Assembly: GCA_017860255.1 (NCBI GenBank)
Contig: JAFNAR010000014.1
Span: 1 to 60,198 of the forward strand
Direction: 5' to 3'
DNA: 60,198 nucleotides
From: Bacteroidota bacterium
GTDB lineage: Bacteria; Bacteroidota; Bacteroidia; Bacteroidales; P3
The stretch's first letter is position 1. Each line of letters opens with the position of its first letter. Below the pieces are notes generated by a model that saw only the letters and a list, made by a program, of their open reading frames with translations, was not told where the DNA came from and did no database searches. Made by a program: the position numbers and the translations under genes. Shown here piece by piece: positions 26,658-33,752 of this stretch.

Positions 26658-28097
26658 ATGAAAGAGTATAAAGAAATATTTGATTTAATTAAGTCCAATA
26701 AGGTTAAAGGAATTTGTTTTGACTCAAGAGAGGCAGAAGAAGGATTTCTTTTTATTGCTCAAAAAGGTACAAATGTTGATGGACATAAATTTATTAAAAC
26801 TGCAATTTCAAAAGGTGCAAAATATGTAGTTTGTGAATTTATTCCAGAAGAAGTGGAAGAATTATCTCAAAAGAATAATGAGATATTGTTTTTTGTTGTT
26901 AAGAATAGCAGTAAAGCATTAGGATATATTGCTTCTGAATATTATGACAACCCTTCAAAAAAACTTAAGATTGTAGGAATAACAGGAACAAATGGGAAAA
27001 CTACAACTGTAACACTTTTGCATAATTTATTTATGCTTTTAGGTTATAAAGTTGGTTTGGTTTCTACAATTGTAAACAAGATAAACAATAGAGAAATAAA
27101 GGCTACTCACACAACGCCAGATGCTATAGAATTGAACAAATTATTTAATCAAATGGTTGTTGAAGGATGTGAATTTGTTTTTATGGAAGTAAGTTCTCAC
27201 GCAATTGTTCAAAACAGGATTGCTGGAGTTAATTTTGAAGGAGGAATTTTCTCAAATATCACTCATGACCATTTAGATTTTCATAAAACTTTTACTTCAT
27301 ACATTAAAGCTAAAAAAGCTTTCTTTGATAATCTTTCAGAAAAAGCATTTGCTCTAACTAATGTTGATGACCAAAATGGAATGGTTATGCTTCAAAACAC
27401 TAAAGCAAAGAAATACACATATAGTTTAAAGACTATTGCTGACTTTCATGCAATTGTTTTGGAAAATGATTTTGAAGCACAACTTCTAAATATTGAAGGA
27501 GTGGAATTGTGGACTAAATTAATTGGACAGTTTAATGCTTATAATGTTTTAGTTATTTATTCAACAGCGATTCTTTTAGGATTAAAAAAAGATGAGGTTT
27601 TAAAAGTTCTTAGTCAATTGGAGCCAGCTCAAGGTAGATTTGATGCTGTTTCAACATCAAAAGGGACAAAAGCTATTATTGATTACGCTCATACTCCTGA
27701 TGCTTTAATCAATGTGATAAAAACTATTAACCAAATAAGACAATCAAACGGAAGATTGATAACTATTGTAGGTTGTGGAGGAGATAGAGATAAAACTAAA
27801 AGACCAATTATGGCAAAAATTGCTGCTGAAAACTCCGATACATTAATACTTACAAGTGATAATCCAAGAACAGAAGAGCCTGAAGAAATATTAAAAGATA
27901 TGCAATCAGGACTGGATATAATTACAGAAAAGAAAAGTTTCACAATTGTAAATCGTCATGATGCAATTAAGTTGGCTTGTCAATTAGCAAATAAGGAAGA
28001 TGTTATTCTTGTTGCAGGAAAGGGACATGAAACTTATCAAGAAGTAAATGGAGTTAGACATCATTTTGATGATAAAGAAGAAGTATTGAAATATTAG
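26658..28097 (+). CDS. murE: UDP-MurNAc-L-Ala-D-Glu:meso-diaminopimelate ligase
   Basis: Adds the third residue of the peptidoglycan stem. The N-terminal UDP-binding domain is followed by the ATP-binding P-loop [11 protein letters not shown] (about 107-117), TTPDAIEL, and MEVSSHA. The C-terminal domain contains [12 protein letters not shown]. The DNPR motif marks meso-diaminopimelate rather than lysine as substrate, which fits Gram-negative-type peptidoglycan. At 479 residues it is full length. Its own substrate is the product of MurD, and the murD gene of this cluster is reduced to a C-terminal fragment. Confidence 0.95.
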
Positions 28098-28120: not shown

Positions 28121-29374
28121 ATGTTATATCACTTATTTACATGGTTAGATTTAGAATTTGGAGTCCCTGGAGCTGGAGCTTTTCATTATATTTCATTTCG
28201 TGCCGCAATGGCTGTAATAACATCATTGTTTATTACAATAATTTATGGTAAAAGAATTATTAGTTTTCTTAAAAGAAAGCAGATAGGGGAATCTATTCGT
28301 GAACTTGGACTGGAGGGTCAAAAGGAAAAGGAAGGAACTCCTACAATGGGAGGTATAATTATTTTAGCAGCAATTATTATTCCAACTCTTCTATTTGCTC
28401 GATTAGACAATATTTATATCATCATTATGCTTCTTACCACCATTTGGCTTGGTTTTATTGGCTTTTTGGATGATTATATTAAGGTTTTTAAACACGATAA
28501 AAAAGGATTAAAAGGAAAGTTTAAGATTATAGGTCAAGTGATCTTGGGAATTGTTGTTGGAGCAATGATTTATTTCCATCCAGATATTACAATCAAGGAA
28601 AAGACTGAAGTTGAAAAATATGCATTGGAGCATAATATTCAAAATGAAACAAAATATCAAAAAGCAAAATTAGAATTCTCTAAGGAGGCTAAGCAATCTA
28701 CCAAAACAACTATTCCTTTTGTGAAGAATAATGAATTTGATTACGCTTATCTTATGAAGTGGATTGGCGATGATTATAGAAATTGGGCTTGGATTATATT
28801 TATTCCAATTGTAATTTTTATTATTACAGCAGTTTCAAATGCAGCTAATTTAACTGATGGAATAGATGGTCTGGCAACAGGCGTCTCCTCAATTGTTGCT
28901 TCTACACTGGGGCTTCTGGCATGGATTTCGGGAAATATAATTTTTGCAAATTATTTGAATATTATGTTTATCCCAAATGCAGGAGAGTTAACCATTTTTA
29001 TTAGTGCTTTTGTTGGAGCAACGGCAGGTTTCTTATGGTATAACACCTATCCTGCTCAAATATTTATGGGAGATACTGGATCATTGGCTTTGGGAGGAAT
29101 TATTGCTGTAATAGCAATATTGATTCGAAAAGAATTACTTATTCCAATTCTTTGTGGAGTATTCTTTGCTGAAAGTATTTCTGTTATTATCCAAGTTACA
29201 TATTTTAAAATAACTAAACGTAAATACGGTGAAGGGAAAAGAGTATTCCTTATGGCGCCATTACATCACCACTACCAGAAAAAAGGATATGCAGAGCCAA
29301 AAATTGTTACAAGATTTATTTTAATCACAATAATATTAGCAATAGTCTCAATAATAACTCTTAAACTAAGATAA
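28121..29374 (+). CDS. mraY: Phospho-MurNAc-pentapeptide translocase
   Basis: An inner-membrane enzyme that transfers phospho-MurNAc-pentapeptide to undecaprenyl phosphate, forming lipid I. About ten transmembrane segments are visible. Signature elements: [21 protein letters not shown] (Asp-Asp pair), [15 protein letters not shown], the catalytic [11 protein letters not shown], and [10 protein letters not shown] near the end. At 417 residues it is longer than E. coli MraY (360), with a charged insert at about 165-215 that is usual in Bacteroidetes. It ends 2 bp before the murD-like remnant. Confidence 0.95.
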
Positions 29375-29376
29375 AC

Positions 29377-29913
29377 ATGACAATAGATTTATTAGCAAAA
29401 CAAGGAGCAAAAAAGGTATATACAAATCTTGCAGGAAGAACATATGAAGATATTTTGTTTAAGAGAAAGGAAATGCAGAATCAGTTTTCTCCTCAAATTG
29501 AACAAGAACATCAAAGAGAAGTTGTTGCTAAGATAAAAGATGTAAAGTTTATTAATGATGCATTTTCAATTAACTCAAACATTACTTGGTTTACAATGGA
29601 ACAGATTTCAAGTAGAATTGTTTGGATTGTGGAAAATGACAATGTTGAGCAGAATTATGATGGGCTAATTAGTACATGTAGAGAAAAGGTTGTGGCTCTA
29701 ATTTGTTATGGAAAGAATATTGAAATGCTTAAAAATACTTTTCAAGGAATAGTTCCTTCTATTCTTCCTGTAAATAATATTAATGATGCAGTAATTTTAG
29801 CAAGTGCTGTTGCTCAGGAGAATGATGTTGTGCTTTTTTCTCCTGCCAATGGTAGTAAGGAAGATATTGAGAAAAGAGGACTTGAATTTCGTAAGGCAGT
29901 TAATAATTTATAA
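29377..29913 (+). CDS. MurD C-terminal-domain remnant (no ATPase domain)
   Basis: A 178-residue protein in the exact murD slot between mraY and ftsW. Residues about 45-178 resemble the MurD C-terminal domain: EHQREVVAKIKDVKFIND, then NSNITWFTMEQISSRIVWIV, and a final LFSPANGS and EKRGLEFRKAV. Bacteroidetes MurD reads FINDSKATNxNSTW here. In this protein the Ser and Lys of that motif are Ala62 and Phe63, and the SPCCASFD stretch is also lost. There is no UDP-binding domain and no P-loop: mraY ends 2 bp before the ATG, so nothing upstream can supply them. The frame is open and in operon spacing, so it may be expressed. It should not be a D-Glu ligase. Function unknown. Confidence 0.75.
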   Translation: MTIDLLAKQGAKKVYTNLAGRTYEDILFKRKEMQNQFSPQIEQEHQREVVAKIKDVKFINDAFSINSNITWFTMEQISSRIVWIVENDNVEQNYDGLISTCREKVVALICYGKNIEMLKNTFQGIVPSILPVNNINDAVILASAVAQENDVVLFSPANGSKEDIEKRGLEFRKAVNNL

Positions 29914-29920
29914 AAACTAA

Positions 29921-31186
29921 ATGCATAGTATGCAGAAAAGCAAGTTTAAAATAAAAGTAAAAGGAGATAAAGTTATTTGGATGGTATTCCTTTTGCTGAT
30001 AATTATTTCAGCAATGGAGGTTTATAGTACTATCGGAAAAACTGTTTATGAACGTCAAGGGGGCTCTCCAATTATGATGTTTGCTAAACATATCTTTATT
30101 CTTTTCTTAGGAACTTGTGTTATGTATGCTGTCCATAATATTAAATACACTTATTTCTCTCGATTTGCCAAAATTGGTTTATATGTTTCTTTCATTCTTC
30201 TAACCCTGACTCTAATTTTAGGTTCTTTTGGAGATAAGGCTGCAGCTCGTTGGTTAACCATTCCTCTTATAGGTCAGTTTCAGCCTTCAGAAATTGTTAA
30301 GATTATACTTATAATTTATGTTGCAAGAGTATTAGCTTTATATCAAGATAATATTAAGTCAATGGAAGTATTTAAGAAATTAATGATTCCTATTTGCATA
30401 ATCTGTGTTTTGATTTTTCCAGAAAACTTTTCTACTGCAACCATTCTCTTCTTGATTTGCTTCTTTATGATGTATATTGGAAGAATTAATAATAAGTATT
30501 TAATTTTAATAGTGATTGTTGGTATTATTGCTGTAATTTCAGTCTTTGCTATATTGAAAGCTAACCCTGACTTGCTTTCTCGTGGAGGAACATGGGTGAA
30601 TAGAATTGAAGAATATTTAAGCGATGATAAAACTGCAATTACTCAATCCAATCAAGCTGAAATGGCAATTGCAACAGGAGGGTTCTTCGGTAAATTCTTG
30701 GGACATACAACTCAAGCAAGATTTTTAAGTGAAAGCCATAATGACTTTATTTATGCAATTATAATAGAAGAAGGAGGTATGCTTTTGGGCATAGTAATCA
30801 TTGCTCTTTATTTAATTCTACTGTATAGAGGAATACAAGTTGCTCGACGTTCAAAAGGTTATTTTGGTGCTTTTTGTGCAATTGGATTAATAATAATGAT
30901 TGTATTTCAAGCAATGATTAATATGTTTGTTGCAACTGGTATAACGCCAGTTACAGGACAAACTCTTCCTTTTGTTAGTTATGGAGGTACTTCGTTTTTG
31001 TTCAGTTGCATAGCTTTGGGGATTGTTTTGAGTATTAGTGCAAGTGCTAATAAGGATCAAGCTAAAGAAAAATTGGAAAAAGATATAACAGAAGAAGATT
31101 CTGTTGATTTAACTTCAGAAGAGAATAAAAGCAAAGAAGAAAATCAATCAGAAAATAATTTTGAAACAAAAGAACAGAACAATTAA
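29921..31186 (+). CDS. ftsW: Lipid II glycosyltransferase/SEDS protein FtsW
   Basis: A SEDS-family membrane protein that polymerises septal peptidoglycan with FtsI. About nine to ten transmembrane segments are visible. Family motifs include KAAARWLTIPLIGQFQPSEIVK, the loop AIATGGFFGKFLGHTTQARFLSESHNDFIYA read in pieces, and the C-terminal TGITPVTGQTLPFVSYGGTSF. At 421 residues it has an acidic/Gln-rich cytoplasmic tail (about 380-421). The first ATG (29921) is 7 bp after the murD-like stop, and a second in-frame ATG at 29930 is also possible. Confidence 0.95.
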   Translation: MHSMQKSKFKIKVKGDKVIWMVFLLLIIISAMEVYSTIGKTVYERQGGSPIMMFAKHIFILFLGTCVMYAVHNIKYTYFSRFAKIGLYVSFILLTLTLILGSFGDKAAARWLTIPLIGQFQPSEIVKIILIIYVARVLALYQDNIKSMEVFKKLMIPICIICVLIFPENFSTATILFLICFFMMYIGRINNKYLILIVIVGIIAVISVFAILKANPDLLSRGGTWVNRIEEYLSDDKTAITQSNQAEMAIATGGFFGKFLGHTTQARFLSESHNDFIYAIIIEEGGMLLGIVIIALYLILLYRGIQVARRSKGYFGAFCAIGLIIMIVFQAMINMFVATGITPVTGQTLPFVSYGGTSFLFSCIALGIVLSISASANKDQAKEKLEKDITEEDSVDLTSEENKSKEENQSENNFETKEQNN

Positions 31187-31198
31187 AATAAATACGAT

Positions 31199-32293
31199 AT
31201 GAAAGCAATAATAAGTGGAGGTGGAACTGGTGGACATATATTTCCTGCAATAGCAATTGCAAATGCAATTAAGGAAAAGTATCCAGGAGCTGATATTCTT
31301 TTTGTTGGAGCAAAAGGGAGAATGGAGATGGAGAAAGTTCCTCAAGCAGGTTATAAGATTGAGGGATTGTGGATAAGTGGTTTGCAAAGAAGACTTACTT
31401 GGAAAAACTTGTCATTTCCATTTAAAGTTATTTCAAGTACAATTAAAGCAAGAAAGATAATTAAGAAATTTAAACCAGATATTGTTATTGGAGTAGGAGG
31501 TTTTGCTTCAGGACCTACTCTTGAGGCTGCTTCTAAACTTGGTATTCCAACTCTTATTCAGGAACAAAATTCATATCCAGGAATAACAAACAAACTCTTA
31601 GCTAAAAAAGTTTCAAAGATATGTGTTGCATATGATAATATGACTCGTTGGTTTGAAGAAAAGAAGATTTGTTTTACTGGAAATCCAGTTCGTCAAAACA
31701 TTGTAGATATTAAAGATAAGAAAGAATTAGCTTTAAAGCATTTTGGACTAAATGAAAATCAGAAAACTGTGTTAGCAGTTGGGGGAAGTTTAGGAGCTTT
31801 AACAATAAACGAAAGTATTGCTCAAGGATTGAAGTATTTTGTTGATAATAATATACAAGTAATTTGGCAAACAGGTAAAAGTTATTTTGAAAAGGCAAAA
31901 CAGGAAGCAGCTAAATACAATTCTAATAATATAAAGGTTTTTGAATTTATATATGAAATGGATTTGGCATATAGTGTTGCAGATGTTATTGTTTCAAGAG
32001 CAGGAGCGATTGCCATTAGTGAGCTTTGTGTTATTGGGAAACCAACAATTTTAGTTCCAAGTCCAAATGTTGCAGAAGATCACCAAACTAAAAATGCTAT
32101 GGCTTTAGTCGAAAAGAATGCTGCATTATTGGTTAAAGATTCAATGGCTAGAGAAATATTAGTTAATGAGATAGATGCATTAATTAAGAATACTGATAAA
32201 CAATTAGAATTGAGTAATAACATTCTTAACTTAGGAGTTAAAGATGCTGATAAAAGAATACTTTCAATAGTGGAAGAGTTAATTAAAAAATAA
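31199..32293 (+). CDS. murG: UDP-GlcNAc transferase MurG (lipid II synthesis)
   Basis: A peripheral membrane GT28 glycosyltransferase that adds GlcNAc to lipid I. The N-terminal glycine-rich loop ISGGGTGGHIFPAIAIAN, VGVGGFASGP and QEQNSYPGITNK are characteristic. The C-terminal UDP-GlcNAc site includes GGSLGALTINE, SRAGAIAISEL and PNVAEDHQTKNA. At 364 residues it is full length. It is 12 bp after ftsW. Unusually for this tight cluster, 115 bp separate it from murC, and that gap is filled by a phased repeat. Confidence 0.96.
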   Translation: MKAIISGGGTGGHIFPAIAIANAIKEKYPGADILFVGAKGRMEMEKVPQAGYKIEGLWISGLQRRLTWKNLSFPFKVISSTIKARKIIKKFKPDIVIGVGGFASGPTLEAASKLGIPTLIQEQNSYPGITNKLLAKKVSKICVAYDNMTRWFEEKKICFTGNPVRQNIVDIKDKKELALKHFGLNENQKTVLAVGGSLGALTINESIAQGLKYFVDNNIQVIWQTGKSYFEKAKQEAAKYNSNNIKVFEFIYEMDLAYSVADVIVSRAGAIAISELCVIGKPTILVPSPNVAEDHQTKNAMALVEKNAALLVKDSMAREILVNEIDALIKNTDKQLELSNNILNLGVKDADKRILSIVEELIKK

Positions 32294-32408: not shown

Positions 32409-33752
32409 ATGAAAACATATTATTTTTTAGGTATTGGAGGAATTGGTATGAGTGCCATTGCAAGATATTTGAAGCAATCAGGCAATAATATCTTTGGGTA
32501 TGACAGAACAAAAACTCCACTTACTGAGGAATTGGAAAAGGAAGGAATGATAATTACCTATGAAGATGATATTTCTGCATTACCAAAAAATATTGATTTA
32601 GTAGTTTACACTCCTGCAATTCCTAAAGAAAATCATATTTATAACTATTTTCTTGAGAATAATTATTTGATGAAAAAACGTTCTCAAATTTTAGGTGAAA
32701 TAACAAAAGGGAAAAAATGTATTGCAATTGCAGGTACACATGGAAAGACAACTTGTTCAACCATGGTCGCTCACATTCTTCATAACAGTGAAATAGGTTG
32801 CAGCGCATTTTTGGGAGGGATTTCTAAAAACTTTAATTCTAATTATGTTATTAATCACAATAGTGATTATGTTGTTGTGGAAGCTGATGAATTTGACAGA
32901 TCTTTCTTAAATCTGACCCCAACAATTTCTGCAATTACTTCAATAGATGCAGACCATTTGGATATTTATGGTAATAAGGAAGAGCTTAAGAAATCTTTTA
33001 TTGAATTTGCAAAGCAAACAAGCGAGGTATTATTCTATAAATTTGGTTTGGAAATAGAATTGGATGAAGAAATGCCTTCTCAAACATATTCCTATACAAT
33101 TAAAGGATTTGATGCAGATTATTTTGCTGTAAATATTAGAAATTATAATGGAACTTATTATTTTGATTTAAGAACTCCTGACAAGATATACTATGATATT
33201 TGCCTGAACTATGGTGGAATTCATAATGTTGAAAATGCAGTTCTGGCTATTTCAATTGCATTAATGTGTGGAGTAAGTGAAGAAGATATGCGAAAAAGCG
33301 TTGCTTCATTCAGTGGTGCTCAAAGACGTTTTGATGTAAGAATAAAAAGAGATAATTTTATTTATATTGATGATTATGCACATCATCCAAATGAAATTAA
33401 AGCCTTTATAGAATCAGTACGTTTTCAATATCCTGATAAAAAGATTACTGGTGTATTTCAACCACATCTTTATTCAAGAACAAAGGATTTTGAAGATGAT
33501 TTTGTGAAAGAGTTAAGCAAATTGGATGAGGTTGTGCTTTTAGATATTTATCCTGCAAGAGAAAAACCAATACCAGGAGTTACATCCAAAGCATTGTTGT
33601 ATAAGATTGACAAGATGGATAAATATTATACTTTAAAAGAAGGACTTTTGGATTTGTTGGAAGCTCTATATCCAGAGATATTAGTAACAATGGGTGCTGG
33701 AGATATTTCTGAATTAGTGCCACTGATTGAAGAAAGATTTAAAGATGAGTAA
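32409..33752 (+). CDS. murC: UDP-N-acetylmuramate:L-alanine ligase
   Basis: Adds L-Ala, the first stem residue, to UDP-MurNAc. The N-terminal Rossmann-type domain begins FLGIGGIGMSAIARYL. The ATP P-loop is AGTHGKTTCSTM. The C-terminal ligase domain holds YIDDYAHHPNEIKAF and FQPHLYSRTKDF. At 447 residues it is complete, with every domain present, unlike the murD-like gene upstream. It overlaps ftsQ by 8 bp. Confidence 0.96.
   Translation: MKTYYFLGIGGIGMSAIARYLKQSGNNIFGYDRTKTPLTEELEKEGMIITYEDDISALPKNIDLVVYTPAIPKENHIYNYFLENNYLMKKRSQILGEITKGKKCIAIAGTHGKTTCSTMVAHILHNSEIGCSAFLGGISKNFNSNYVINHNSDYVVVEADEFDRSFLNLTPTISAITSIDADHLDIYGNKEELKKSFIEFAKQTSEVLFYKFGLEIELDEEMPSQTYSYTIKGFDADYFAVNIRNYNGTYYFDLRTPDKIYYDICLNYGGIHNVENAVLAISIALMCGVSEEDMRKSVASFSGAQRRFDVRIKRDNFIYIDDYAHHPNEIKAFIESVRFQYPDKKITGVFQPHLYSRTKDFEDDFVKELSKLDEVVLLDIYPAREKPIPGVTSKALLYKIDKMDKYYTLKEGLLDLLEALYPEILVTMGAGDISELVPLIEERFKDE

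Follow-up and report, generated by a model that had tools for sequence, protein, structure and literature searches.

Mur ligases are usually regarded as enzymes and drug targets, and in E. coli MurD the residues R302, S415 and F422 and the HN motif have functional roles. A second form of glutamate addition, the MurD2/MurL pathway, is described from Xanthomonas oryzae and others, with MurL found in Gamma- and Alphaproteobacteria and Actinobacteria and low-similarity orthologs in a fungus, cyanobacteria and an amoeba (PMC8788868, PMC5808125). Changing two residues together (E197D/R358K) shifts Xanthomonas MurD2 from L-Glu to D-Glu, and in E. coli MurD the change K319T allows L-Glu to be accepted, but D182E/K348R does not (PMC8788868). 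The available parts of these accounts name no Bacteroidota and no stand-alone MurD C-terminal domain. Reports describe binding of MurD by MurG in T. maritima (PMC6420597, citing other work) and a scaffold role of MurG for the Mur ligases (PMC6420597, partly citing others), and no free Mur domain is mentioned in the available part of that paper. In the titles and abstract openings that our literature search covered, with subscription journals mostly outside, there was neither a stand-alone MurD C-terminal domain nor a MurL in Bacteroidota. MurD, MurL and MurD2 are known families; a conserved, recurrently derived free MurD C-terminal domain was not met in that literature.

The window, by which we mean the whole stretch of 60,198 nucleotides that was analysed, carries a dcw cluster with the following features.

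26658..28097, + strand: murE, 479 aa, dcw context
28121..29374, + strand: mraY, ending 2 bp ahead of the next feature
29377..29913, + strand: stand-alone MurD C-terminal domain (CTD), 178 aa, here called the orphan, identified by profile, fold and PDB sequence search
29921..31186, + strand: ftsW, starting 7 bp past the orphan
31199..32293, + strand: murG, dcw context
32409..33752, + strand: murC, dcw context; a paralogue that the murD model also matches, more weakly

The orphan shares with MurD (TIGR01087) its dcw position and its CTD, as seen by profile, PDB sequence search and fold. Its frame is intact from the ATG at 29377 to the stop codon ending at 29913, and the TIGR01087 profile (441 positions) aligns with it from position 301 to 440 (E 5.7e-20), in agreement with the initial annotation, which had described a CTD-only MurD of 178 codons in the dcw cluster. 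The score of 71.8 bits falls below the curated cut-off of 211.95 for full-length MurD, and Pfam Mur_ligase_C matches at E 5e-4, under its family cut-off; sequence and fold together place the orphan as a MurD CTD homologue. We modelled it with AlphaFold2 from 9 aligned sequences, the window's own and those of eight loci in named Bacteroidales MAGs (mean pLDDT 69.5; residues 1-48 below 50, residues 49-178 mostly above 70), and the top 33 Foldseek matches of this model in the PDB were all MurD chains, over approximately 130-160 alignment columns, so that the proposed structural comparison with MurD also came out positive. In the PDB sequence search the closest solved relatives were likewise MurD, from residue 300 or 311 onward in the best matches (best E 5e-5). 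The orphan differs from MurD in what it has lost: its N-terminal ~45 residues are a piece of the former central domain, and the N-terminal domain and the P-loop ATP-binding domain are missing from the 178-aa frame. The SPCCASFD-type stretch is indeed replaced, as had been noticed, and reads SPANGSKED. The NDSKATN motif has lost its Lys (NDAFSIN); in the alignment Phe (NDAF) stands at the K319 site and Val at the K348 site, and the S415 site is still Ser. Without the ATP-binding domain the orphan should not form the bond, and as judged from its sequence it cannot by itself be a ligase.

The window's family is represented by 61 genomes from 12 genera. The orphan was detected in 57 of them by tblastn and in two more (G016 and G058) by profile, 59 in all, and was not found in the other two, which are 61% and 71% complete. 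An open frame stands at the equivalent place in 56 other family genomes (26-97% identity), with mraY upstream in 57/57 parsed family loci and ftsW downstream in 56/57, the remaining locus stopping at a contig end. These open frames and the presence of the orphan in named MAGs of other projects indicate that it is not an assembly error, and together with the coordinates they uphold the view that the short frame is not a frameshift artefact.

The genome that carries the window (2.58 Mb, 99% complete) has one full-length match to the murD profile (304.8 bits), which lies outside the dcw cluster on another contig.

contig C16, L001:70-2790: MurL-MurD2 fusion, 906 aa, identified by profile matches

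Residues 78-449 of the fusion are MurL-like (NF041275, E 4.5e-72, 242.9 bits, under the cut-off of 700 bits) and residues 478-904 are MurD (TIGR01087, 303 bits), so MurL homology and a MurD homologue coexist here as they do in the MurD2/MurL pathway, with a MurL score below cut-off. The host shares with that pathway a MurL-joined MurD, the L-Glu residues and the fact that no MurI was found (PMC8788868, PMC5808125, as far as the available text goes), and differs in having MurL and MurD2 as one 906-aa chain. Within the window's family, some genera encode the two in a single frame (885-1138 aa) and others as separate genes. MurI, the glutamate racemase, was not found in the window's genome by a search that was positive in 10 of 14 control genomes, nor in any of the 49 high-quality genomes of the family, the one weak match (E 1e-4) in the family belonging to a 71% complete genome; MurL was detected in 59 of the 61 family genomes, every match falling far below the curated cut-off. 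Among 198 genomes of the order, 68 carry MurL (a count that includes G112, a weak partial match, and in which the curated cut-off is reached by 0/198), 120 carry MurI over cut-off, none carries both and 10 carry neither (Fisher p 1e-42 for mutual exclusion, the genomes not being independent). Two genomes of one genus, G135 and G238, both 99% complete, have neither MurL nor MurI over cut-off and have a full-length MurD frame of 468 aa; G135 alone shows a weak racemase-like match.

Both L-Glu specificity residues (Glu197/Arg358-type) are found in the C16 fusion and in 48/50 MurD2 sequences. In this set of non-dcw MurD2 (50 hand-chosen sequences from 49 genomes, one entered twice, with MurL and MurD2 apart in some), the E. 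coli K348 site is Arg in 50/50, the D182 site is Glu in 48/50 and the K319 site is Ile in 50/50. The full dcw MurDs have D, K and K at the D182, K319 and K348 sites in 44/44. Since MurI was not found and a full MurD is fused to MurL with the L-Glu signature residues, L-Glu is probably ligated and then epimerised by a MurL-MurD2 route. The initial annotation had placed D-Glu addition elsewhere in the genome and proposed searching for a second or fused MurD; the fused MurD exists and Glu addition is encoded elsewhere, but a plain second MurD that adds D-Glu is not what was found. The same L-Glu/MurL route is suggested in about one third of the sampled genomes of the order (68/198), in which glutamate racemase would not be the target it is elsewhere. 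The MurL route does not preclude a conventional enzyme: 32 MurL-positive genomes with no MurI over cut-off keep a full D-Glu-type dcw MurD (e.g. G200, G207 and G254; loci L238-L269), with the P-loop Lys and the D182, K319 and K348 sites intact in 32/32, and thus MurI-less cells can retain that enzyme, a point against the explanation favoured below.

The reduction of murD is not peculiar to this genome and recurs across the order. In 80 parsed dcw regions the gene between mraY and ftsW encodes either 443-461 aa (44 regions, lengths after start extension, starts restricted to ATG having given lengths down to 281) or 161-187 aa (36 regions, spanning 19 families). The 65 MurL-positive genomes outside the window's family include 24 with a CTD-only gene and 32 with a full dcw MurD, five that are cut by contig ends yet show more than the CTD (G072, G112, G154, G166 and G219) and two without an mraY over cut-off (G080 and G188). 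Among the order-wide CTD matches listed, 22 frames are shorter than 400 aa and all come from MurL-positive genomes. The genome G075 (98% complete) has a CTD-only dcw gene (G075:C4:299584-300057; L205, L301) and neither MurL nor MurI detected. In two MurL-positive genomes of one genus, G137 (91% complete) and G240 (73%), there is no CTD match beside mraY or elsewhere; by eye, within 1.5 kb flanks (L319, L318), their mraY stands outside the dcw cluster with no adjacent ftsW. In G240, MurL lies just downstream of mraY on the opposite strand.

CTD-only and full-length genes occur in sister genomes inside single families (G199/G086, G109/G218, G153/G254, G133/G236 and G094/G207; supports 0.99-1.0). 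On a 51-genome tree we count 12 changes of state, 11 of them forced by strong branches. A first FastTree split the window's family, and constraining the family together raised the likelihood, so the changes were recounted with the family as one tip: this 45-genome tree, under a site-heterogeneous model, gives 13 changes, 7 forced by strong branches. Both trees come from quick searches of hand-picked rows, in which the strong-branch marks are less reliable, and higher counts (15 and 16), neither of which was altered by collapsing weak nodes at any threshold, were set aside. A single ancestral truncation is rejected, because all CTD-only genomes as one clade fail the AU test (p-AU 9e-6); the window's family as a clade is not rejected (0.92). 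Full genes may instead have been regained by transfer. When transfer of the orphan was checked in the five same-family pairs, the five nearest CTDs of each orphan were full-length and none was an orphan, with the orphan's own family partner nearest in one pair of five (ranks 16, 1, 3, 4 and 4). These patterns suggest that the enzyme part was lost repeatedly, with seven losses as the minimum on the more conservative tree.

Most of the truncated genes share a start. With the start taken as the first ATG after mraY, 30 of the 36 orphans begin at one alignment column, which is an internal Met in 42/44 full dcw MurDs. Met occupies this column in 45/51 full dcw murD genes of MurI-positive genomes (40 of the 51 taken from rows already listed with long frames), in 30/32 of MurL-positive genomes and in 0/30 MurD2 (4 gapped there). 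Since the internal Met is equally common in MurI-positive genes, finding it does not by itself indicate a start. In the analysis of synonymous composition around it, all statistics take related genomes as independent. A pooled set of 42 genes from both groups gave a signal, and splitting by group placed it in the MurL-positive genes: upstream of the internal Met, G is avoided at synonymous positions (observed/expected 0.62, p 3e-6, n=30), and in a gene-wide scan the site ranks 1 of 433 for G depletion in MurL-positive genes (0.66, n=32) and 80 of 433 in MurI-positive genes (0.95, n=51). The G deficit occurs in 24/30 MurL-positive vs 26/45 MurI-positive genes (p 8e-4 for the difference; p 0.004 with GC-matched sets, n=26 and 39). 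An excess of A in the MurL-positive genes (1.09, p 1.5e-4) places the site at rank 39 of 433. Compared with synonymous shuffles, the mRNA around the site has weaker folding in MurL-positive genes (z +0.66, p 3e-4, n=30), with no shift at the internal Met in MurI-positive genes (z 0.13, 0.03) or MurD2 (z 0.01), and its raw folding energy puts it at rank 14 of 421 in MurL-positive and 101 of 421 in MurI-positive genes. At the control sites, around the SMAA Met, folding exceeded that of shuffles in a single group out of four (11 MurI-positive genes; z -1.09, p 0.014). A Shine-Dalgarno-like stretch precedes the internal Met in 1/30 MurL-positive and 5/45 MurI-positive genes. An internal promoter in place of a start was considered and rejected, the Bacteroidota-type consensus motif being present in 1/30 MurL-positive and 0/45 MurI-positive genes. 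Our reading is that MurL-positive lineages would produce the CTD separately from a full-length murD, and that the truncated gene is what remains once no other product of murD is needed.

That murD has been cut repeatedly at one spot in these uncultured Bacteroidales and related lineages, with its job seemingly taken over by another enzyme pair, suggests that the remnant is useful in itself, and for the window's orphan we infer a structural or regulatory role, as the initial annotation suggested. The explanation that we favour, to which we give close to an even chance, is that the CTD is a separately needed, non-catalytic docking protein, made first as an internal-start product and later as the sole product. 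In MurL-positive lineages the full-length dcw murD would have gained an internal translation start yielding the CTD alone; in lineages that could do without the enzyme part, codons 1 to ~263 would then have been deleted, repeatedly, and the internal-start product would remain. The CTD itself would act as a protein-protein docking piece that anchors either the Mur ligases or the MurD2/MurL step at MurG/MraY/FtsW. The comparative support covers this explanation up to the repeated deletion, and the docking role is our most likely guess. The interaction predicted for the host resembles the MurG-scaffolded cytoplasmic Mur complexes in the proposed docking of Mur ligases at MurG/MraY (PMC6420597, in the part available). 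The internal-start signal is seen only in MurL-positive genes and the orphans were found in MurL-positive genomes (plus G075), which suggests a link with MurD2/MurL and that the CTD might tether this pair to the membrane-side complex. The CTD-less genomes G137 and G240 indicate that the CTD can be dispensed with when mraY and ftsW do not lie together, and their missing mraY-ftsW neighbourhood fits the docking idea, though they represent one genus. For the order as a whole, we consider it possible, at somewhat less than an even chance, that the Bacteroidales murD of the MurL/MurD2 lineages is a dual-product gene whose free CTD is accessory to the pathway or to the lipid II complex and whose enzyme part was deleted at least seven times. 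If true, a repeatedly derived, catalytically empty MurD domain would be direct evidence for a second, separable job of a Mur ligase domain, bearing on the cytoplasmic Mur/MurG/MraY complex, and a recurrently born non-enzymatic Mur protein would be new.

The residues that orphans retain bear on whether the CTD could rather be a ligand-sensing or allosteric regulator that adjusts the pathway on binding MurD2/MurL, a nucleotide or a Mur intermediate, which we think unlikely, although selection on the free CTD and the restriction of the internal-start signal to MurL-positive genes, tying the CTD to that pathway, would suit it. The SPACxSFD and NDSKATN motifs are kept in the orphans of several lineages, as a regulator would have it, but the K348 equivalent, the Glu-contact Lys, survives in 9/35 MurL-positive orphans (K319 in 16/35) and the HN-motif His in 0/36 orphans vs 44/44 full MurDs, so these ligand contacts are not the conserved feature overall. 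Retained in 86-97% of the 36 orphans are W335, W347-I348, D325, N332, P420, F438, V442 and L445 (G093 numbering); as a group, active-site positions did not decay significantly faster in orphans (p 0.11).

The amino-acid binding site of Mur ligases sits in the CTD, and the orphan remains in a Mur operon, both of which could point to a trans-acting catalytic piece that completes another Mur ligase or works with MurD2. We regard this as improbable: MurE and MurC are full-length, MurD2 spans positions 2-440 of the murD model, every remaining Mur-type match of the genome falls in a frame of 433-935 aa, and the catalytic contacts have decayed in many orphans.

Rates of change bear on the remaining alternatives. 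Within the genus, pairwise dN/dS of the orphan is 0.08-0.22, compared with 0.03-0.09 for mraY and 0.02-0.14 for ftsW (Nei-Gojobori, pairs with pS <0.70, many dS values being close to saturation), and 0.12-0.13 in the four closest pairs. The orphan changes faster than its neighbour genes yet is clearly constrained, and the suggested dN/dS comparison across relatives thus finds the remnant kept by selection. That the frame between mraY and ftsW is only a translational-coupling spacer, or is kept for a regulatory element that it contains, with an idle protein, would explain the tight 2 bp and 7 bp gaps and the identical neighbours in relatives, but it is very improbable given purifying selection at the amino-acid level, a conserved fold, lengths that stay within 161-187 aa across the 36 orphans and their 19 families, a gap between mraY and the first ATG that varies from 0 to 177 bp across the family (leaving out a locus that has further in-frame ATGs upstream) and a promoter motif upstream of the internal Met in 1/30 MurL-positive genes. 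A decaying pseudogene, frameshift or assembly artefact, for which one could cite that two domains and catalytic residues are gone and that dN/dS exceeds that of mraY and mostly that of ftsW, is hardly credible and is ruled out by frames open in 59/61 family genomes, by the selection just described and by named MAGs from other projects.

Two minor observations concern the CTD and its neighbourhood. The Ala414 equivalent is Pro in 12/35 MurL-positive orphans (G018, G022, G109, G199, G221 and others), as in Xanthomonas MurD2, where P433A leaves stereospecificity unchanged (PMC8788868). In the MurI-positive genome G062 (L315:4019-4670), an additional frame of 216 aa lies between a full murD and ftsW.
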